Assembly (NCBI GenBank): GCA_031285565.1
Contig: JAITVY010000042.1
Span: 62,001 to 126,000, forward strand
Length of the DNA: 64,000 nt
Reading direction: 5' to 3'
Source: Tannerella sp.
GTDB taxonomy: Bacteria > Bacteroidota > Bacteroidia > Bacteroidales > Tannerellaceae
Every line of letters begins with the position of its first letter. Position 1 is the stretch's first letter. Made by a program: the position numbers and the translations under genes. Of this stretch, positions 1,701-53,637 are shown piece after piece. The notes beneath the pieces are model-generated. The model searched no databases. It was not told where the DNA came from and was given only the letters and a program-made list of their open reading frames with translations.

Positions 1701-3125
1701 TCACTTTGTTTGAGGCAACAAAGCTTCTATTTCATTCAACCATAAAGTTAGTTTTTGATTCAATCTCTTTTTTATCTCCGGGTGATATTCAACTATATTA
1801 TTCTGTTCCTGTGGATCTTCTTTTAAATTAAATAATTCAAACCGTTCTCCCTTTATCAACTTTCCATATGGCACTTTATGAATTTCTTTGAATCCATCTA
1901 TTTGATAATAATCACCATAACTATGAATCAGTTTATAATCGCCATCTATAATAGCTGAAGAAGGAGTTTTACTATACATTTCTTCATAATGCGGATGATG
2001 AAAAAATATGGTTTCCCGTCCAAACGCCTCACCATTTGTCCATAATGGGACTAAACTCCTTCCATCAATCACATAATTCTCTGGCTTCGATCCTCCAGAT
2101 AGCTCCATAAAAGTAGGATATAAATCAACAATATGAACCGGAACAGAGCATATTTCTCTGGGTGCAATTTCTCCGGGTAAACGCATGATAAGTGGCGAGC
2201 GTATACCTCCTTCATACAAACTGCCTTTAGCTCCTCGTAGCGGACTATGATCCCAATATCTCCCCAATGCTCCATTATCGCCCACAAAAACAACCAGTGT
2301 ATTCTCACGTAACCCCAATGTTTCAAGCTTATCCAACAGTCTTCCCACCGAAGTATCCAGAAATTCAGTCATTGCCAAAAAATCTGCGGTAGGTCTTTCA
2401 TCTGTATTCCCCCAAATGTCCGTACTACGTTTATAACCTAAAGATTCATATTTACGAATCAATGAATCAGGTGCTGCAAGCGGAGAATGGGTTGTGAAAT
2501 GAGAGGCCCAGACAAAAAAAGGACGATCTTTATTGGTCTCCATAAAAGTGCATATTTCATTTGTAATAGCATCAACAGCCTTATAATTATCAGTTGTTTC
2601 ATTAGCATCTCCTGCCCAGTCTATGCCATAACGTTCAAAAAAACGACCTTGCATTTCACTTTTCATGGGTTGAACCGAATAATTGCCTCCTATATGCCAT
2701 TTACCGCTAATTCCGGTTATATAGCCTGCATCTTTCAACATTCGTGTAATGTTATACCATTCAACAGGTATCGCCCGAAGCGGCTCAGGTTCTACCATAT
2801 ATCCATTCGAAAATGGTTTTGCATGAGTGACTGCAGTCATCCGGCTACGACCCGGATATTTCCCTGTGAAAAAAGCCCCCCTTGTAGGCGAACTCTGAGG
2901 CATTACATAAGCACGGGTGAATCTGATCCCTTCACTTGCCAGTTTGTCCAGGTGAGGCGTTTGTACATGTTTATCACCATTGCACCCCAATTGGTTCCAT
3001 CCAAAATCATCTGCTAATATAAATAAAATATTAGGCTGTTTTCCTCTATCCGCTGCTATCACCTGCAATCCTAATACAAATGGGATTGTTCTTAAGATGA
3101 TACGTTTTGCATTTATTTCAACCAT
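1701..3125 (-). CDS. Serine-type sulfatase, family S1, exported
   Basis: Second type I sulfatase of PUL1, 474 residues, and clearly different in sequence from its neighbour, which suggests another regiospecificity. An N-terminal hydrophobic stretch (about residues 9-24) is a likely signal peptide. Metal-binding ADD is at 38-40. The signature S-S-P-T-R is at 78-82, followed by FFTGKYPGR, so the maturation residue is Ser78. A GDNG motif contributes the C-terminal half of the metal site. The start overlaps the 3' end of the GH127 gene by eight bases, which implies translational coupling in one operon. Confidence 0.9.
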   Translation of the reverse strand: MVEINAKRIILRTIPFVLGLQVIAADRGKQPNILFILADDFGWNQLGCNGDKHVQTPHLDKLASEGIRFTRAYVMPQSSPTRGAFFTGKYPGRSRMTAVTHAKPFSNGYMVEPEPLRAIPVEWYNITRMLKDAGYITGISGKWHIGGNYSVQPMKSEMQGRFFERYGIDWAGDANETTDNYKAVDAITNEICTFMETNKDRPFFVWASHFTTHSPLAAPDSLIRKYESLGYKRSTDIWGNTDERPTADFLAMTEFLDTSVGRLLDKLETLGLRENTLVVFVGDNGALGRYWDHSPLRGAKGSLYEGGIRSPLIMRLPGEIAPREICSVPVHIVDLYPTFMELSGGSKPENYVIDGRSLVPLWTNGEAFGRETIFFHHPHYEEMYSKTPSSAIIDGDYKLIHSYGDYYQIDGFKEIHKVPYGKLIKGERFELFNLKEDPQEQNNIVEYHPEIKKRLNQKLTLWLNEIEALLPQTK

Positions 3126-5175
3126 TTGTATTCACTTTTTCAATTAATTCTGTTTCTTCGGTACCTGCTTTTTCACGATCTTCAATCAACAACATGCACA
3201 TGGAAGAAACCCCTCTGTTTTGCCAGCCGAAATAAGGAATCGCCTTAAACACAACGGGATCAGAACCAATAAGGCCTTTTCCTTTCAAAACCATAGCTCC
3301 ACCCAACATATCCGGTTCAAAAACGGAAGTAATGGCATCGTCGGCGCTTAGTTGCATTTGTAATATATCAAACGGATGATCGCATCCCTCCAAACAATAG
3401 AGCAAAGGGCCACGCATAAGTGCAACCCGCCCCTGGTTTGCCTTTATATCAGGATCCGTATAAATTTTCATAACCGGCATTTCAAAAAGAAGTTCTATTT
3501 TGTCATGCCTGTTCCACCGGCGTTGAATACTTAAATAACCATTACGAATGTTATTAGCTTTCTGTTCTTCCCCATTGATAAACAGGCTGAATTCTGGGTT
3601 CTCTGCGTTAGAAAAAGAATAGGTTGATGATATATGATTGCTTCCGGCTACCCGGGAAGGTATACGAAGATGACATTCAAATTCACCTTCGCTACCTATC
3701 TCTATTTCTACTTTTCCATTCCATACATAATCAGATTTCATATTCAGTCGGATCTCATTGCCCGATACCCGGGTTTTTAACGTACTTCCTATATATTGGT
3801 TTACATAAATACCTTTATCGTCTTTTGCATAAATCCAACGACCTACCCCGGTAATAAATCCCGGCAGTTTAGAAGGACAACAGAACAGATAGGTAGTACG
3901 CAGACCATTATGAGGAGTCTCCCTGTTTTTTTCGGAAATATTAATCTTATTAGCATAGAAAAATCTTTTCCCATCATCGCTTATTCCGGCCAATCCTCCG
4001 TTATACAATTCAAGTTCTACCAAATCTGCATATTTTGCATCAGCAGTCAGTAAGTTCAGCCGATGATTCCATTGCCCCTGGGCAATATTAGCACAACATT
4101 CGCTATATGTCGAAAATATCGGCAGATCATCATCTTCTCCATGCTGTTCGGCCGGTACGCCATTTCCGGTACCACCATGAATATACATTTTATGAGTCGT
4201 TACATTTTCCCATAAATGCGAAAGACCTCTTTTCAAACTATCTTCGCCGGTTGCTCTTACGACATCAGTTGCTCCTGAATAAACATATGCCGTACGGACA
4301 CAGTGCCCATAGGCTTTCGATTGTCTATGCAAAGGTTTTGAATTCTCTTCCTGATTCAGATCTACAGGTCGGGTAAATTTGATATACCTTGCTGACCAAT
4401 CAGCTAAATGGAAGTATTTTTCCTCTTTTGTTACTTCATATAGCTTCATTAAACCTATTTCCAGTTGGGGATGATCAGCATATGTTGAAATCTTATCGAA
4501 TGTAAAGACATCACAAATATGATCAGCAAAACGGATCGCTGCATCCAAATACCGGCGTTTGCCTGTCCCCCTGTAATAAGCGACTGCCGATTCGAACAGA
4601 TGTCCTGCACAATACAGCTGACTGTATGCAAACGGCCAGTTATCCGACCGTGAACACCATCTGTTTTCAGGTCCGTATCCAAATTTCAACACATGCGGAT
4701 CATTTCTTGAGGGTGAAGCCGGATGGTCAAAATCCAACGTATATTGCGTATTGATATAGCCACTGGTATCCTGGGCGTCAATTATATCTTCAATAATAGC
4801 ATCACACCGGGCTTCTAGAATTGAATCCGATCCGAAAGAAGCCAGGTATCCGGCAGCCTCCAATAATTTATACACATCTGAATCCGGTGCATTATACAAC
4901 CGGATTTTTCCTTTCTTTTTCCCGGCTGTAATCCGGAAATTATCAATCTTACCTTGTTCTTCAGCTATATCTAATAACAGAGGTAAGGTCACTTGCTGAA
5001 TGGTTTCAATTTTACGGTTCCAGAAAAGGTCATTAACCTGCACTTCATTAAACTCTACGGTTTGTAACATAGAATAAGGATACACACCTTTCTCAGAAGT
5101 GCAGGATAGCAGACCTATACTCAGTAAAAAATAAACCCGGAAAATTATCCGAAAATCAGGCTTATTTATTTTCAT
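3118..5175 (-). CDS. GH127-type beta-L-arabinofuranosidase, lipoprotein
   Basis: Protein of 685 residues of the DUF1680/GH127 family, whose characterised members release beta-L-arabinofuranose. The N-terminus ends in a lipobox (LLSC, Cys25), so it is probably membrane-anchored. GH127 enzymes use a zinc site built from a Glu and three Cys, one of them the nucleophile. Here the equivalents are visible as Glu359 and Cys361 in SECCANI and the Cys432-Cys433 pair in LFCCPSK. The helical barrel comes first and beta-sandwich regions follow. It sits between the GH-D-like lipoprotein gene and the sulfatases in PUL1 and overlaps the next gene by eight bases. A related family such as GH146 is possible. 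Confidence 0.8.
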   Translation of the reverse strand: MKINKPDFRIIFRVYFLLSIGLLSCTSEKGVYPYSMLQTVEFNEVQVNDLFWNRKIETIQQVTLPLLLDIAEEQGKIDNFRITAGKKKGKIRLYNAPDSDVYKLLEAAGYLASFGSDSILEARCDAIIEDIIDAQDTSGYINTQYTLDFDHPASPSRNDPHVLKFGYGPENRWCSRSDNWPFAYSQLYCAGHLFESAVAYYRGTGKRRYLDAAIRFADHICDVFTFDKISTYADHPQLEIGLMKLYEVTKEEKYFHLADWSARYIKFTRPVDLNQEENSKPLHRQSKAYGHCVRTAYVYSGATDVVRATGEDSLKRGLSHLWENVTTHKMYIHGGTGNGVPAEQHGEDDDLPIFSTYSECCANIAQGQWNHRLNLLTADAKYADLVELELYNGGLAGISDDGKRFFYANKINISEKNRETPHNGLRTTYLFCCPSKLPGFITGVGRWIYAKDDKGIYVNQYIGSTLKTRVSGNEIRLNMKSDYVWNGKVEIEIGSEGEFECHLRIPSRVAGSNHISSTYSFSNAENPEFSLFINGEEQKANNIRNGYLSIQRRWNRHDKIELLFEMPVMKIYTDPDIKANQGRVALMRGPLLYCLEGCDHPFDILQMQLSADDAITSVFEPDMLGGAMVLKGKGLIGSDPVVFKAIPYFGWQNRGVSSMCMLLIEDREKAGTEETELIEKVNTNG

Positions 5176-6826: not shown

Positions 6827-8305
6827 TCAATAACCCGGATTTTGTGTCAGATTTTTATTTTTCATCATTTCTTTTGATGGAATCGGGAACAACTGATGAT
6901 GTTGTTGAACATGTTTAGCTCCATCAGGATTACTTCCTCCCATTGTATGAACTACTTCGACCAGCTTATTCCACCTGCAGAGATCAATTTTCCGGTGATA
7001 TTCAAAAGCTAACTCCCATTTCCTTTCATTAATTATGTCTGAAAAGAATTGGTCTTTACTACGGCCTGCAAGTGGTAAAAGATTTGCCCTTTCGCGAATC
7101 GTATTAATCCGGTCGTAAGCCTTCGCTGTAGGACCATTATTCAGTTCATTCTCTGCCTCTGCTTGCATCAGATAGGCATCTGCCAACCGATAGATTAGCA
7201 CATTTATCCCTGAATTTCCTCTGATCATGTTTTCCGGCTTATCTAAAAATTTAGCCACGTAATTAAATATAAAATTAACACGATCATCTCCGTCCAACCA
7301 TTTATACCATATTATACGCGCATCATGCTGATCAAATGTAGTTATAAACTCCGGTGTGGCAGTTAATAGGCCATATCCGGTAAATATACTGCTCAATGCA
7401 GGGTCTGTCGATGTTTCATCTACCCCTCTGGGGCACATTTGGGTAGTACGGTGCTGTCTGAATATATGCTGAACAAAATCCAATTCCCATATTGACTCTT
7501 CGTTATATTCGTGTTCTTCACCCCATAGATCATCATAGCTGTTTAACAATCGGTGCGACGATTGGGAAATAATCTCTTCACAAGTTGATGACACTTTAGC
7601 CCATTCTTTTTCCCATAAATAGAATTTACTTAACAACATTTTAGCCGCCCATCGTGTAGGCCTGCCTTTATAATTATCTGCCGAGTTATCCGGAAGATCG
7701 TTTGCAGATGCTTCCAAATCGCTTATCATATTTTTTCTGATTTCCGAACATGAAGTTCTGGGTAGGCCACTAATAGAATAATTAATGTCGAACCGGTCTA
7801 TATATGGAACATCACCCCACAACGAAGTGAGGTAATAATAATAGAATGCACGATAAAAAAGTCCTTCAGCAACAATCTGCTTCCGGATACTTTCTGTCGT
7901 ATTCTTAGAGTTCATAACCTTATCTATCAAATTATTGGCATCAGCTACACCCCGATAAAAGACTCGCCACAAATCGGGAATGGCTCCCTCAGTAGCTACC
8001 GAGAGGTTATAGACATGGAATGGATACTGTGCTTCACGTCCACCTGTAGGACGGGCAATATCTGTACCGTAATGGAGAAAATAATTCAAATCCCATTGCA
8101 GTCCGTCTATTCCGGGTTGCCCTCCAAATAATTTCGTTACATTATGATAACACCCGATAGCTCCTGCATTGGCTTCGACATCAGATTGATAGAATTGATC
8201 CGGTGAAACAAAACTTTTAGGATCTTCGTCCAGAAAGTCTGTACAGGAAAATAAACTAAGCGAAATTATTATCGCCCCAATATTGATTAATTTTTTCATG
8301 ATCAT
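6827..8305 (-). CDS. SusD/RagB-family glycan-binding lipoprotein (PUL1)
   Basis: A 492-residue SusD homologue that should sit as a lid on the SusC channel at the outer membrane and bind the glycan. The signal peptide ends in a lipobox (LFSC, Cys21). The protein shows the helical TPR-like region with the AEGLFYRAFYYYYL motif typical of RagB/SusD and closes with the usual LTQNPGY. It follows susC by a few bases and is intact, although its susC partner is frameshifted. The start could be either ATG at 8305 or the one two codons later. Confidence 0.93.
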   Translation of the reverse strand: MIMKKLINIGAIIISLSLFSCTDFLDEDPKSFVSPDQFYQSDVEANAGAIGCYHNVTKLFGGQPGIDGLQWDLNYFLHYGTDIARPTGGREAQYPFHVYNLSVATEGAIPDLWRVFYRGVADANNLIDKVMNSKNTTESIRKQIVAEGLFYRAFYYYYLTSLWGDVPYIDRFDINYSISGLPRTSCSEIRKNMISDLEASANDLPDNSADNYKGRPTRWAAKMLLSKFYLWEKEWAKVSSTCEEIISQSSHRLLNSYDDLWGEEHEYNEESIWELDFVQHIFRQHRTTQMCPRGVDETSTDPALSSIFTGYGLLTATPEFITTFDQHDARIIWYKWLDGDDRVNFIFNYVAKFLDKPENMIRGNSGINVLIYRLADAYLMQAEAENELNNGPTAKAYDRINTIRERANLLPLAGRSKDQFFSDIINERKWELAFEYHRKIDLCRWNKLVEVVHTMGGSNPDGAKHVQQHHQLFPIPSKEMMKNKNLTQNPGY

Positions 8306-8311
8306 CTGATT

Positions 8312-10955
8312 TTAAAATTCAACATTAAATCCTATCTGGAAAGAACGATTCTGAGGATATGCCATATCATCCACACCTCGTGCAACTGCATGATTTCCTG
8401 TAACATCCGGATCATACCCCCATTTATAGTTTGTCCAGGTAAACAGATTATTGAATATAACATAAATATTACATTTATTCATCCAGCTTATATCTTTTAC
8501 AGGGAGTGTATATCCAAACTTTAATGTTTTAAATTTCAAATAAGAACCATCCTGTACAGAGGGCGAATAATTCAGATTATTCACATTGATATTATATGGG
8601 AATGCACCGGGAGCCAATACATTTGAGTTCGGATAACTTTCCGACCAGGGTTTACCGTCAAACCTAAACAGGTTGGAACCGAAATCGCCGAAGAAGAAAT
8701 AATTGGATGCCGGATTTAATATGTCATTTCCATAACTCCCCTGAAAAAATAATTCCAGATTGAATTGCTTATACCTTGCATTCGCCCCCAGACCACCAAA
8801 AAAGTCAGCTTCTGCATTTCCCAAGATCGCATAGTCGCCTACTCCATCATATTTACCATTCTCGTTTACATCTACAAATCTTGCCGTGCCCGGACGCGCT
8901 CCCGGCATATAATTCGGATTTGCGTCTATTTCGGCCTGCGATTTCCAGGTACCTTCGTATACGGCCCCTACAAAAACTCCGGCCGGTTTGTCTTTATATA
9001 AACGAACACCCTTTTGTACATCTATATAATCTGCATCGCCAATATCTAACACTTTATTCCGGTTACGTGAGATATTGAAATTCAAATCCAGCCCGAAATC
9101 TTTCTGTTCAATAATGCCTGCATTCACCATTAAATCGAATCCTTTGTTGCCAACTTTTCCAATGTTTTGCAATTGAGTACGGTAACCACTGGTCCAGGGA
9201 ATTTCCACATTCATCAGCAAGTCTTTTGTTTCTTTATAGTAATAATCAAATTCAAAAGATAGCCTGCCATTAAAAAAAGCAGCTTCCAATCCGATATCAA
9301 ATTGGGAGGTAGTTTCCCATTTCAAATCCGGATTCGCAATATTTCCCAGCAAATAGCCTGTATACTTGTTTCCTCCTAACGTAGGTGTTACCACATTCAG
9401 TGATGCCAGTGATTGGTAAGTATTGATAGCCTGATTACCGATCAAGCCGTAGCTTGTACGAAGTTTCAAATTATAAAATATATCCAAATCCTTAATAAAT
9501 TGCTCTTCTCCCAAACGCCAGGCCAACGCAGCAGATGGAAAAAAAGCCCATTTATGGTTCATCGCCAACCGGGACGATCCGTCATAACGAGCTACAAGAG
9601 TTAACAGATATTTATTCATAAGCGAATAGTTCACCCGTCCGAGGTAAGAAAGCATCTGATTCTCTGTGGCATCCGAATCGTAGGTGGCTGTCGATGGATC
9701 TCCCGCCGATAGTTTATTATACTTCATAATATCATTGGAAAAACCTTCTACTTTCGTATAGTTAGAACTTGCACTCTCCTTTTGGATTGTGAATCCTCCC
9801 ATTGCTGTAAAATTGTGTATCTCATTTATATCAAAAGTATAGCTTATGGTATTTTCATTTAAAATACTGAAATAGTCCCTATTATCCAATCGGGCTAAGC
9901 CTCCTTTTTTATTTTCGGCCCGGTTGGGTAAAATGCCCGGTTCGTACCGTTCTGTTTTTTGTGAATGAAAATCTCCACCTACTGTCGAACGAATAACTAA
10001 ATTTTTGATCGGATTAATTTCCACATAAAAGTTAGCTAAAAATCGTTTCGCATATGTATCCGTTTGTAACAGATTATTCATGGCAACCGGATTATTAAAC
10101 AATTCACTATTGATCGGACTTTTATAAGTGTATTCACCATTTTCATCGTAAACAGGAATACAGGTCAATGCAAGCCGGGACCCATTATAAAAATCCACTT
10201 TTGGATTATCGGTATGCAAACTACTAGCATTCACATTAATACCTATCTTTAACCAATCATAGAGTTTTTTATCCAGATTGATACGTGTTTGATATCTGGT
10301 AAACCCCGAACTTTTATAAATACCTTCCTGATTGTAATAATTGGCCGATATAAAATGAAGGAAGTCTTTTGTGCCGCCGGAAATTGATAAATCTATATTG
10401 GTTACAGGAGCAACTCGGGTAATTGCATCCTGCCAGTCCGTATTTTGTACTTTACCCATATCCGGAAAAGGAGTAGGTCCCCCTGTAAATTCAGCATATG
10501 CATTGGCAAATTCCGCCCTTTCATACCCATCCATAAAAGGTAATTTTTTAGGTAGCGCCTGAAATCCCTGATAGAAATTCACTCCAATCTTACTACGCCC
10601 TTCTTTTCCCTTTTTGGTAGTTATCATGATTACACCGTTGGCTCCCCGTGAACCATAAATAGAAGTTGCAGTTGCATCTTTCAATATTTCAATAGACTCA
10701 ATGTCAGATGGATTAATAGAGTTCAAATCTCCTCCCCCTATAAAACCATCAATTACGTAAAGAGGCTCATTATTTGCAGAAATAGAGTTTCCTCCCCGAA
10801 TTCGGATACTTGTCCCCGAACCCGGCGCCCCTCCCATTGAAGAGATCTGTACACCCGCTGCCCGTCCTTGTAAAGCCTTATCAATGCTTGGAACCGGTAA
10901 CCCACTCAGTTCTTCTGTCCCAACTTTGGTTACAGATCCGGTTAAATCGCTTTTT
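8312..10955 (-). pseudogene. SusC-like TonB-dependent transporter, C-terminal part of a frameshifted gene (PUL1)
   Basis: This frame encodes the plug domain and the 22-strand beta-barrel of a SusC transporter. It starts inside the plug and ends in a C-terminal aromatic (NVEF). Read upstream of its first ATG (10837), the frame continues without a stop through SDLTGSVTKVG and a typical plug sequence (KALQGRAAGVQ) back to about 10955. There the N-terminal half, in another frame, ends in GYGVVKKAI and a stop. Adding one A to the A6 run at 10951-10956 would give GYGVVKKSDLTGS, the normal SusC junction. A single-base deletion therefore splits the gene. Sequencing or assembly error in the homopolymer is the main alternative; ribosomal or transcriptional slippage is less likely on such a short run. 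Confidence 0.85.
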
Positions 10956-11619
10956 TGACAACACCATATCCCACAACAACTACTTCCTCCAAACTTTTAG
11001 TATCCTCTATTAATATTATAGATAGATTCGTCTGATTCTTTGTTGAAACGTCCTGAGTAGTATAACCGATATACGAAATTTGTATAATTGCATTATCGTT
11101 AACACTTAAGACAAAATTGCCGTCAATATCAGTGATTACTCCATTAGTAGTTCCCTTTTCGACAATATTGGCGCCAATAATAGGTACACCCATTGCGTCA
11201 ATAACCGTTCCTCTGATTTGACGACCTGTTTGCTGAGTCAATTGCTTTATACTATTCTTCGATAGAATTATATAGTTATTTTCAAATTCGATATTTATTT
11301 GCCTATCATTAAAGGCTTCTTTGAGGTAACCGGAAACTTTACCAGTCTTACTTTTCACACGGATCATTTCATCCACATCCACTTCTCCATTGCTAAAAAC
11401 TACCAGATAATCGGTTTGCTTTTCTATCTGGTCAAAAAATTGCCCAAGGCTAAGCTGGGTTGAGGGCAATTGGATGGTTGCATTCTGTGAATTCCCGTTA
11501 ACAGCTAAAAGCTGAAAAACACATAGGAATAAAAGAAATGTTGAGATTTTCATAATTCGATATAAATTTTTGTTGTTTTTTGTGCACAAGGAATGTGCAT
11601 ACAAAGGATGTCTTTTCAT
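10942..11619 (-). pseudogene. SusC N-terminal part of the frameshifted gene: signal peptide, STN and carboxypeptidase-like domains (PUL1)
   Basis: This 225-residue fragment carries a signal peptide (from Met23, MKISTFLLFL), an STN (secretin/TonB short N-terminal) domain at about 45-120, a carboxypeptidase-regulatory-like domain at about 135-205, and a TonB-box/plug start ending GYGVVKKAI before a premature stop. The STN domain marks the protein as a transducer that signals to FecR. Alone it cannot form a transporter. Residues 1-22 precede a normal signal peptide, so ATG 11553 is a plausible alternative start. The first ATG overlaps a plus-strand promoter element (see the antisense RNA entry). 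The lesion is the A6 tract at 10951-10956, where seven A would restore the frame. Confidence 0.85.
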
Positions 11620-11626
11620 ATCTTTG
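11619..11626 (+). promoter_or_regulatory. Promoter -7 element of candidate antisense RNA 1
   Basis: TATCTTTG on the plus strand is a perfect TAnnTTTG match. It starts on the last base of CAT, the complement of the first susC start codon. An identical octamer occupies the same place in PUL2 (36927) and TAATTTTG does so in PUL3 (52441). A good -33 box is not obvious here. Confidence 0.55.
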
Positions 11627-11631
11627 TAATA

Positions 11632-11712
11632 TAAAAGTAAATACTAAATTAGTTTGATTCTGTGTTTGCTTTGAATTGGACCGGCGGATGTGACAGCATC
11701 TGCCGGTTTTTT
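11632..11712 (+). ncRNA. Candidate DonS-like cis-antisense RNA 1 (PUL1)
   Basis: Predicted RNA of about 80 nt on the strand opposite susC. It begins a few bases after the TATCTTTG element and ends at the T-run of a strong hairpin. It would be antisense to the susC leader and lies in the fecR-susC gap. This matches DonS, a cis-encoded RNA from Bacteroides fragilis that represses its PUL. The ends are estimated, and no expression can be seen from sequence. Two more loci with the same layout occur in this window, which is the strongest support. Confidence 0.55.
11680..11712 (+). terminator. Intrinsic terminator of candidate antisense RNA 1
   Basis: An 11-base-pair stem (ACCGGCGGATG with CATCTGCCGGT, one G-U pair) around a six-base loop, followed by T6 on the plus strand. 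Oriented this way it cannot end the minus-strand fecR or susC messages; it fits a short plus-strand transcript. Confidence 0.75.
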
Positions 11713-12033
11713 CATTTCGGTGTTGTGTTCTTCATGGGCATTTGGGTATTAAGTTAAACATAATATAATTAGTAGTCAGTAGTTAGTAGTTAGTAGTCAA
11801 AATTAATAGAATAACTGAATAATTGATTAACCGAATAAACTGAACGTTTTAAGTAGCTAGGGCTGAAGCTAAACTTGTTTGGATTATGCCGAGTCACGCA
11901 AAACGACTGATGAAATCGAATAATTGAGTCAATTGAATGTATTGAATTAATCATTAACCATTAATCATTATTTTGAACTTTGAACTTGAAACTTTGAACT
12001 TTGAACTTTGCAAACTACTGGTTTGTATATCTA
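11713..12033. repeat. Gene-free stretch with short intergenic repeats
   Basis: No gene is visible. It holds a tract of TAGTAGTCAGTAGTTAG-like units (about 11770-11800), AT-rich TTAA/ATTGA words, and a tandem run of TTTGAAC heptamers near 11970-12008. The leader and ECF-dependent promoter of susC could lie at its susC-proximal side, but I cannot place them. Confidence 0.6.
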
Positions 12034-13005
12034 TCAGCTGAGAGTAATCTTATTAAGGCTTTCATTGCTATCTATTTTAAAATGATGTATTTTCTGTATG
12101 ATTCGCAGGATTTCCATCACCCCGTCACGCTGACGGAACTTCCCGGTATATTCGTATTCGAGAATGCGCGGATTACTTACTGTTATTTCAACATCAAAAT
12201 ATAACTCCAGCTTTTTAATGATATTCCGCATCCGTTCCTTTTTAAAACTATAAAGACCTTCCTTCCAGAGAAGATCATCCAAATCAATACTTTTTTCCAG
12301 CCTGAACATCCCGTTTTCAACGATAAGTTGCTGGTTAGGTTCCAGTATTTGTCCAGAGCTCTCTTTTCCGGTCTGATAAACAATGATAGACCCATTTGTC
12401 AAAGTTGCGCTCAGCATGCCTGCTTTCGGATAATTGCTGACATTGAATTGCGTCCCTAACGCCTTGATCTCAATATCACCTGTTGCAACAATAAACGGTT
12501 TATCTGCATCTTTAGCCACATCAAAAAAACCTTCCCCTACCAGACTAACTTTCCTTTCATTTTCAAACACAGACGGATAGTGCAAGCTCGAACCGGCATT
12601 TAACCAGGCGGTTGAACCGTCAGGAAGTGTAATCCGCGCACGTTGACCGGCTGGGACATAGAGTTCCTGCAAAGAAGACTTCGCCATATCGGAAGAGGAT
12701 ACCGGAATTGATGTAAACATCCGGCCAATCATAAACGCAATAGCTATTAAGGCTGCATAACCCACCATCTTTTTGCCTGTTACCCATAGTTTCTTCCGTT
12801 GCATCTTCTGCTCCATCCGTACATATCTTTCCTTCCCCTGTTTTTCGTCTGCATTAGACGAGACCAAATGAGTAAGACCCTGGATATTCTATATAGCCGC
12901 AAAATCTTCTTTTATCTTTTCATCTGTCTCCCTCTCCCGAAGCAATGCCATACGCTCCGTTTCGGTCAATTCTCCCCCAAAATATCTGATGATGCGTTCG
13001 TCCAT
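12034..13005 (-). pseudogene. FecR-family anti-sigma factor interrupted by an in-frame amber stop (PUL1)
   Basis: FecR proteins hold an ECF sigma factor inactive until the STN domain of the SusC partner signals. From ATG 13005 the frame reads MDERIIRYFGGELTETERM and onward to codon 38, then a TAG at 12889-12891 (codon 39). It continues in the same frame with NIQGLTHLVSSNADEK through a transmembrane segment (KKMVGYAALIAIAFMIGRMF), the FecR domain (LPDGSTAWLNAGSSL) and the C-terminal DUF4974 region to 12034. The break falls in the N-terminal sigma-binding domain. A CAG-to-TAG change would explain it. Restart at a downstream TTG (12867) or ATG (12816) would give a protein without the sigma-binding part. 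Confidence 0.85.
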
Positions 13006-13155: not shown

Positions 13156-13710
13156 TTATTCAATTATTCGACTAAAGAAAAGTGCCAGCATAGGATAGTA
13201 ATCCTTCAAATCTTCTTTCAGTTTTTTGTAAGCAATAGTCATTTGGTTTTCAATAGTCTTTGACGAAAGTTGCAGCTCTTCCGCAATCTCTTTTAGTTTC
13301 ATACCTTCTATTTTATGCTTAATAAAGATGATCCGGCATTTTTCAGGCAACTTATTAAGGGCGTTTTCAATCCTTTCTTCCAGGTTACTATCCATGAGTA
13401 TATCATCATCCAGGATTTCCAAAGAATCAAACTTCATACGTAGTGTCAGCAAATATTCCGATTGCATATAGTCTACTGATTCCTGGTTAACAATCTTACG
13501 GCGCAAATGGTCGATACACCTGTTCTTTACGGTCGTAAAAACATAGGCAGGCATATTTACCCTGAAGCTCAACGAATCATACTTTTCGTATAGCTCCAGA
13601 AATACATCCTGCACGATATCCTCTGCATCATCATCAGAGATCACATATTCACGGGCAAAACTCTTCATCCGTGAATACCATGATACATAAAAATCTTTGA
13701 ACGTCATCAA
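13156..13710 (-). CDS. ECF-type RNA polymerase sigma factor (PUL1)
   Basis: 184 residues with the two sigma-70 helical regions of the ECF group. Region 2 includes DDDAEDIVQDVFLELYEKYD (about 26-45). Region 4 is at about 115-170, with LPEKCRIIFIKHKIEGMKLKEIAEEL and the helix-turn-helix LSSKTIENQM. It is first in the PUL1 sigma-fecR-susC-susD order and should activate the susC promoter when released. It is intact, whereas the partner anti-sigma gene 150 bases downstream carries a stop codon. A TAnnTTTG element lies 32 bases upstream of its ATG. Confidence 0.93.
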   Translation of the reverse strand: MMTFKDFYVSWYSRMKSFAREYVISDDDAEDIVQDVFLELYEKYDSLSFRVNMPAYVFTTVKNRCIDHLRRKIVNQESVDYMQSEYLLTLRMKFDSLEILDDDILMDSNLEERIENALNKLPEKCRIIFIKHKIEGMKLKEIAEELQLSSKTIENQMTIAYKKLKEDLKDYYPMLALFFSRIIE

Positions 13711-52602: not shown

Positions 52603-53637
52603 CTATTTTTTCTTCAACCAGACTTCGATCCGTTGTTTGGTTAATGTAGAATCATTGTTTTTCACAGGAGCACTGATTTTCCATTCAATAGGCGCAGCTA
52701 TTTCCAGATAAGAGAATATTTGCTGAATAGTCTCATCGGTAAATGTAACACGCGATAAATACCGTCCGGACTGATTATATTCGTCATGCAAAATGATATC
52801 TACATTATAGCGTTTGCTTAGCTGGTCAAACACTTCATTTAAAGGCGCATTCCGGAAAATAATCTTACCGTCTTTCCAGGCCAGTTTTTCATATAGGTTT
52901 ACCTCTTCAATAGTTATTTCTTTCGTTTTACTGTCGATTGATATCTTTTCCCCTGGATTTACTTCCTGCAACTGATCCCCGTAAGACACTGCTACTTTAC
53001 CTTCAGCTAAAACGGCTTCTACTAGCTCCCCCCCCGCATTTACATTAAACCGGGTTCCATAAGCCATTATTTTCGTCCCGGATGTGGTTTTCACATAAAA
53101 AGGATGTTCTTTGTCGGATTGTACCTCAAAATACCCTTCTCCTTCCAGTTCAACTTCCCGTGCCTTTCCGTTAAAATGAACCGGATAACGTAGCATTGCA
53201 TTGGAGTTTAGCCAAACCTTTGATTTATCCGGCAATTCAAACCGGGAAATCAATCCGGGAGCAGATACAACTTCTGCATAAACGATCTCCTCTGGCGTTT
53301 TATGAAAAGCCAGATAACCAAAAGTTAAAGTTGTAATTAATAGTGGAATTGTTAATATAGCAGCTGCACGGGATAAAAACCGAATCAATTGTTTTCGTTT
53401 TCCGGTTTTCTTTATAACATCACGGAGTTCCCTGTATCCGGCATGGATATCATACGATTCCATTTCATGTATCTTTCTGCTTATTTTCAAAGCTTCCCTT
53501 ACAGCATCCAATTCACCCGCCATCTCCGGGGAGCCGGCTATTAACTCCTCGACCTGTGATTTTTCAATTTCACTTGCCAGGCCTGCTGCGTACCTGAAAA
53601 ACAGGATTTCCCGATCTATATGGTGTTCTTCTTGCAT
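52603..53637 (-). CDS. FecR-family anti-sigma factor (PUL3)
   Basis: 344 residues. It has an N-terminal sigma-binding part (1-85), a transmembrane helix (about 88-110), a FecR domain (FELPDKSKVWLNSNAMLRYP, VELEGEGYFEVQ) and a C-terminal DUF4974 domain with a short extra tail rich in Lys. It should regulate the divergent ECF sigma gene. The gap to that gene (about 220 bases) must hold both promoters. Reading frame intact. Confidence 0.94.
   Translation of the reverse strand: MQEEHHIDREILFFRYAAGLASEIEKSQVEELIAGSPEMAGELDAVREALKISRKIHEMESYDIHAGYRELRDVIKKTGKRKQLIRFLSRAAAILTIPLLITTLTFGYLAFHKTPEEIVYAEVVSAPGLISRFELPDKSKVWLNSNAMLRYPVHFNGKAREVELEGEGYFEVQSDKEHPFYVKTTSGTKIMAYGTRFNVNAGGELVEAVLAEGKVAVSYGDQLQEVNPGEKISIDSKTKEITIEEVNLYEKLAWKDGKIIFRNAPLNEVFDQLSKRYNVDIILHDEYNQSGRYLSRVTFTDETIQQIFSYLEIAAPIEWKISAPVKNNDSTLTKQRIEVWLKKK

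Follow-up and report, generated by a model that had tools for sequence, protein, structure and literature searches.

Opposite the start of a fecR-linked susC gene, does the other DNA strand carry a gene of its own, and if so, is its product part of how the operon is controlled? The window, a stretch of 64,000 nucleotides from the Tannerella sp. assembly GCA_031285565.1, contains a PUL (PUL1) whose ECF sigma factor, fecR, susC, SusD and GH127-type genes all lie on the minus strand. Which glycans Bacteroidota feed on depends on their PULs, and ECF-type PUL control is only partly explained; according to the available text of PMC11501099, a PUL24 anti-sigma mutant of B. thetaiotaomicron retains strong carbon-source control, tied at least partly to the regulator BT4338. 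The sequence between fecR and susC of PUL1 very probably holds a short RNA gene on the plus strand, opposite the susC start. We consider it probable that its product is a cis-antisense RNA of the DonS type, some 80 nt long, whose gene lies within the susC leader and which restrains the PUL. The features of the locus are as follows.

13156..13710, minus strand: ECF sigma factor gene, an open frame.
12034..13005, minus strand: fecR (anti-sigma), interrupted in frame by TAG at 12889-12891.
11733..11764, minus strand: candidate ECF-type susC promoter of putative function, GCCCATG with an upstream GTTTAAC-like stretch.
11680..11713, plus strand: intrinsic terminator hairpin with T-run, from terminator scan, fold and direct reading.
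11634..11672, plus strand: 5' hairpin, from the fold, with a core stem common to several paralogues.
11631..11713, plus strand: predicted antisense RNA of about 80 nt, its 5' end placed from the box and its 3' end from the terminator.
11619..11626, plus strand: sigma-ABfr-like -7 box of the antisense RNA, TATCTTTG, read directly and lying on the susC start codon.
10942..11619, minus strand: 5' part of susC, with the first ATG at 11617-11619 and a carboxypeptidase-like domain.
8312..10837, minus strand: 3' part of susC (plug and beta-barrel), in a frame that differs from that of the 5' part.
6827-8305, minus strand: SusD.
3118-5175, minus strand: GH127-type enzyme.

The preliminary description of this DNA had reported a plus-strand TATCTTTG element over the first susC ATG, and the element is read there at 11619-11626; it shares a T with the CAT at 11617-11619, where the longest minus-strand susC frame has its ATG. 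Judged by its predicted product, this ATG is a credible start, since an N-terminal extension of the RIM kind is common to many fecR-linked paralogues, where it stands directly before the hydrophobic signal stretch. The 11-pair hairpin with six Ts that had been noted 53 bases past the box is likewise present on the plus strand: arms ACCGGCGGATG (11680-11690) and CATCTGCCGGT (11697-11707), with one G-T among their pairs, enclose the six-base loop TGACAG (11691-11696), and the Ts comprise the last base of the stem and five more, to 11712. A terminator scan of 11000-12500 lists this hairpin among three sites (0.9 expected) and gives it 14 pairs with its extension. The core stem of the 5' hairpin is formed by GTAAATAC (11637-11644) and GTGTTTGC (11662-11669). 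Folded as RNA, positions 11632-11714 form both hairpins at -37.2 kcal/mol (z -7.2), and the window RNA matches the covariance model introduced below with an E-value of 1.2e-13, the window sequence itself being one of the 12 in that model. The predicted antisense promoter has a positioned -7 box and no -33 box, and no TTTG-like -33 element is prominent in the genome-wide logo. No Rfam family reaches its gathering score in the window; matches to DnaX, mir-2002 and MPMV at 11500-11800 fall far under the cut-offs and were dismissed as weak chance matches. A sigma-70 promoter scan was discarded as uninformative for Bacteroidota.

The same arrangement recurs across the host genome, a draft of 5.0 Mb in 118 contigs that is about 83% complete. 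It contains 52 FecR_C matches, of which 43 were taken as FecR loci and nine were set aside (eight in SusC-size frames of 877-1190 aa and one beside an already counted FecR); leaving out L033, at a contig end, and L041, with no next ORF, gives 41 gaps between fecR and the next ORF. On the susC sense strand the box reads CAAANNTATG, and a relaxed form allows T at the first C. The strict box is locked onto an in-frame ATG in 26 of the 41 gaps, as compared with a mean of 0.875 gaps and a maximum of five in 200 shuffles of the gap set, none of the 41 gaps on their other strand, and none of 227 control ORFs. With the relaxed box the lock is found in 31/41 gaps versus 3/225 control ORFs, and ten of the 41 gaps lack even this form. 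Once three gaps shorter than 40 nt are excluded, 29 of the remaining 38 carry a terminator on the antisense strand versus three on the sense strand, and such antisense terminators appear in 2.0% of 760 shuffles. Upstream of 225 control ORFs there are five antisense and 13 sense terminators, and box and antisense terminator together occur at none of them. In 27 loci, the median distance between the ATG and the start of the terminator stem is 63 nt. The pattern of box and terminator at fecR-susC gaps is not due to chance.

Beyond the terminator lies a second recurrent element. The heptamer GCCTATG is present in 27 of the 41 gaps, on the sense strand only (0.3 expected), with a weakly conserved TTAAC-like stretch upstream. 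It lies a median of 27 nt past the terminator stem (20 loci; 20-34 nt in all but one, at 182). GCCCATG at 11733-11739 of the window is a one-base variant, at a distance from the terminator within the range of the paralogues. From its position and recurrence, GCCTATG is a candidate for the susC promoter used by the PUL ECF sigma factor. PMC12596196 proposes a non-canonical -30/-10 motif with TGTT near -10 for SigW-1 (PUL59) and SigH-1, the SigW-1 motif being described there as not significant. That motif is unlike GCCTATG, which counts against GCCTATG as a general ECF promoter, and GCCTATG does not occur in the available text of that paper. Prediction of ECF promoters is termed challenging in the accessible part of PMC3878776. 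In the same part of the window, at 11759-11800, stands a low-complexity repeat of the TAGTAGTCAGTAGTTAGTAG type, of which some thirty similar short stretches are found elsewhere in the genome.

The predicted RNA also has a fold that belongs to one strand. Among the own-genome paralogues, the folded set comprised the 27 of the 31 relaxed-lock loci with a detected terminator, the RNA of PUL1 included. The 5' part has z < -2 in 25 of the 27 as antisense RNA and in none as sense RNA, with median z-scores of -2.97 and -0.73, respectively, and the antisense form is the more stable in 26. In 42 loci elsewhere with lock and terminator, drawn from the named loci, P. vulgatus and the Bacteroidia part of the fetched loci, the median z is -2.27 for the antisense and -0.40 for the sense form; stability favours the antisense form in 38 of these loci, and z < -2 is reached by 29 antisense versus six sense forms. 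This asymmetry goes with G-U pairs, which become A-C in the sense RNA: in 18 sequences, the antisense RNA is paired at all 142 stem cells, while the sense RNA would have A-C mismatches at 35 of them. Covariation was counted in a 12-sequence alignment; these sequences, like the 18, were chosen for a consensus-like stem. Nine of its 19 pairs have changed on both sides, as against a shuffled mean of 2.8 and none of 500 shuffles reaching nine, and sliding the alignment destroys the pairing. The terminator stem accounts for eight of the nine covarying pairs and the 5' stem for the ninth; the other variable pairs of the 5' stem have changed on one side only. RNAalifold, given a first 10-sequence alignment in which the 5' stems were misaligned, recovered the terminator only, and the covariance model was built on 12 rows because the 18-sequence alignment proved by eye to be misregistered in six. 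A loose search for the stem consensus, passed by 25 of the 27 loci, was dropped as evidence, as its null passes 107 of 270 shuffles; weight is therefore placed on fold energies, covariation counts and model matches outside the training set.

This fold bears on whether an RNA product does the work at all. Antisense transcription might itself act through promoter collision and leave the RNA as a by-product; with the antisense box on the susC start codon, facing the presumed susC promoter, collision is built into the locus. A strand-specific, covarying fold would be needless if the product were idle, and we regard an account by collision alone as unlikely.

It could also be that the locus is a relic: no RNA would be produced, and the decayed PUL would have retained box and terminator by chance. 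The preliminary description had called both fecR and susC broken, and so they are in this assembly: an in-frame TAG (12889-12891) interrupts fecR, and a T-run near 10951-10956 is where susC passes from one frame to another. Together with the variant GCCCATG, these lesions speak for decay. Against it, the box, both stems and their spacing are intact; GCCCATG is also carried by locus L022, which weakens its reading as a promoter lesion; and the breaks in fecR and susC may be sequencing errors, given the fragmented draft assembly. A relic in this sense seems improbable, to much the same degree as collision alone. Taken at face value in this one assembly, a fecR interrupted by a stop codon and a frame-broken susC mean that the operon on which the antisense RNA may now be acting is damaged, and the RNA may have outlived its target, as the broken pair would fit. 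According to the available text of PMC11501099, PUL transcription in B. thetaiotaomicron goes up when the PUL24 anti-sigma gene carries nonsense mutations; should the same effect apply here, the ECF promoter would be freed and the antisense RNA would be the brake left on it.

A further alternative is a trans-acting RNA family, whose paralogues would cross-regulate PUL leaders through similar stems. The 5' stem sequence is indeed common to several paralogues. Their loops and flanks differ, and a search of the host genome with the 12-sequence model gave little sign of dispersal: with 150 of 3423 candidates scored, it matched 16 places at E < 0.1, of which 15 lie in fecR-susC gaps (seven training sequences and eight outside the training set) and one, at C6:111544, away from such gaps, so that no free-standing copy is evident. 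Two further places at E 0.1-1 are a stray match and one on the opposite strand of a true place. Regulation in trans is rather less probable than either of the foregoing accounts. The covariance model is specific, but it is too narrow to find most members alone.

The lock itself might be a special context for SusC translation starts and not a promoter, since CAAANNTATG sits exactly on start codons. Start codons in Bacteroidota favour A-rich upstream sequence, which we counted for this reading. Among the 30 best SusC genes, scored with the relaxed box, 16 of the 20 fecR-linked genes are locked (counted by hand), and the ten without fecR have neither lock (0/10) nor antisense terminator (0/10). 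The lock thus belongs to the ECF/FecR type of PUL and not to a general start context. With a further zero at the 227 other ORFs, and with the lock travelling together with the antisense terminator, a pair seen at none of the 225 controls, a translation context is very unlikely. Weakest of all is a structured leader of the susC mRNA in place of an antisense RNA: the presumed leader contains the same DNA and inverted repeats fold on either strand, but 35 of 142 stem cells turn from G-U to A-C in the sense RNA, none of 27 sense forms has z < -2, and it is on the antisense strand that the hairpin is followed by T-runs (29/38 versus 3/38), which leaves this reading scarcely tenable.

The cis-antisense reading is also supported by its spread. 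In four orthologous regions of the same genus (G016, G001, G008 and G024), the sequence is 74-78% identical over the match, the box is kept and no terminator stem departs by more than one letter. A model search of 147 other genomes of the phylum, with 30 candidates scored per listed genome and stricter filters, found six places in five genomes at E 0.01 among the candidates scored. Four of the six (L306, L307, L308 and L310) lie between fecR-like and susC-like ORFs and on the opposite strand, three of them abutting FecR_C matches and L308 judged by eye; L309 and L311 are not between such ORFs.

The remaining counts, like that of the SusC genes, used the relaxed box. In P. vulgatus ATCC 8482, where 22 of 29 FecR_C matches were examined, the lock is present at eight of the 22 loci, all in gaps of at least 144 nt, and seven of the eight have a detected terminator (tallied row by row). 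The named-locus set contributed 79 loci, one of 80 having ended too early. In its 53 gaps of at least 80 nt, the lock occurs in 30, an antisense terminator in 37, a sense terminator in five, and lock with antisense terminator in 22; in its 26 short gaps there is one lock and no terminator. Restricted to the 27 long gaps that record titles place outside Bacteroidales, the set has ten locks, 16 antisense versus four sense terminators, and both lock and antisense terminator in five. Among best-scoring loci taken from four named genomes, lock and lock with terminator are found, respectively, in 5/9 and 4/9 (Sphingobacterium), 8/9 and 5/9 (Sinomicrobium), 4/9 and 3/9 (Echinicola), and 1/2 and 1/2 (Winogradskyella). 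Best-scoring loci from further genomes of the same class give 7/12 and 3/12, and those from other classes 0/17 for both. By these sequence criteria the design is present in Phocaeicola, Parabacteroides, Sphingobacterium, Sinomicrobium, Echinicola and Winogradskyella, with per-locus evidence that is thinner outside Bacteroidales. As a separate observation, the fecR-susC gaps of P. vulgatus (L200-L221) and of the named loci fall into two classes, long ones often with the antisense design and short ones (<80 nt) almost without it. The recurrence of this folded design at most fecR-linked susC genes here, and at some across the class, suggests a widespread brake on carbohydrate use.

RNAs of the DonS type are already known in Bacteroides. 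DonS itself, from Bacteroides fragilis (Cao 2016, as cited in PMC7366714 and PMC10994844) and hence from a different genus than the Tannerella host, is divergent from susC and antisense to its 5' region, and the predicted RNA has the same placement, its overlap with the mRNA resting on the presumed upstream promoter. According to the available text of PMC7366714, DonS is one of a family of cis-antisense RNAs of 78-128 nt, divergent to susC and with a negative effect, and ten more DonS-type loci, five of them validated by northern blot, are present in B. thetaiotaomicron; the length of about 80 nt predicted here from box and terminator falls within that range. The identification of this locus as DonS-type, already offered in the preliminary description, is supported by the agreement of location, orientation, predicted size, promoter-like box, terminator, strand-specific fold and covariation. 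Its accompanying statement that such RNAs repress their PUL stands in part: the prototype does so (PMC7366714, PMC10994844), but among 32 PUL-associated antisense RNAs of B. thetaiotaomicron the correlation is both negative and positive, as given in the accessible part of PMC10994844. Because some of these antisense-PUL pairs correlate positively, repression is not universal.

FopS and GibS of B. thetaiotaomicron, as presented in the available text of PMC11697453, are small RNAs with a terminator hairpin, as here. FopS acts at susC start regions, and four of 14 members are antisense by location. It differs from the RNA of the window in having a single-stranded 5' part and in acting in trans with RbpB, whereas the latter is predicted to act in cis and to have a stable 5' hairpin in place of a single-stranded 5' seed. 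The part of PMC9723704 available to us mentions 15 PULs in B. fragilis and names no flavobacterial RNA of this kind. The start-codon lock, the strand-specific fold and the class-wide spread are the additions made here; in the literature consulted we found no text on these three, and Cao 2016 may describe some of them.

Several features suggest how a DonS-type RNA at this locus could act. Firstly, a housekeeping sigma factor would make the antisense RNA while FecR holds the ECF sigma factor. Because the terminator stops it slightly before the presumed susC promoter, the RNA would be complementary to the susC leader along its whole length, and its pairing with the leader could block translation of leaky PUL mRNA or lead to its decay. 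The second feature is the strand asymmetry of the fold: the complement of the 5' hairpin in the leader folds differently, and the leader can therefore remain accessible to ribosomes in the absence of the RNA. Finally, once freed, the ECF sigma factor would drive head-on transcription through the antisense promoter, turning the RNA off and sharpening the switch. In a broader form of this proposal, a folded antisense RNA of fixed geometry—the box placed over the start codon of susC, a pair of hairpins and an end just short of the ECF promoter—would be a third component of the ECF-sigma/FecR/SusC module across Bacteroidia, combining a 5' fold specific to the antisense strand, an open leader and mutually exclusive opposed promoters; we hold the chances of this generalisation to be evenly balanced. 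A recognisable fixed design would let sequence predict which PULs carry such a brake, and it is easily tested, as the promoter box allows a one-base change that leaves the susC codons as they are.

Repeat tracts were observed within susC genes of this type and near the next PUL. In same-genus PUL1-type susC genes, G tracts share one position, in the stretch that links the carboxypeptidase-like domain to the plug: near 969 in L046 (nine Gs), 2207 in L047 (six), 923 in L049 (seven) and 921 in L053 (15). Across 30 further same-genus loci, none of 29 distinct poly-G tracts of at least nine had the SusC GYG motif just downstream. In L047, L049 and L053, though not in L046, the reading frame changes at the tract, as in phase-variable genes. 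Within the window itself, a run of eight Cs at 53028 (G8 on the minus strand) lies some 160 bases away from the FecR_C match that belongs to the next PUL and may fall inside the fecR of that PUL.
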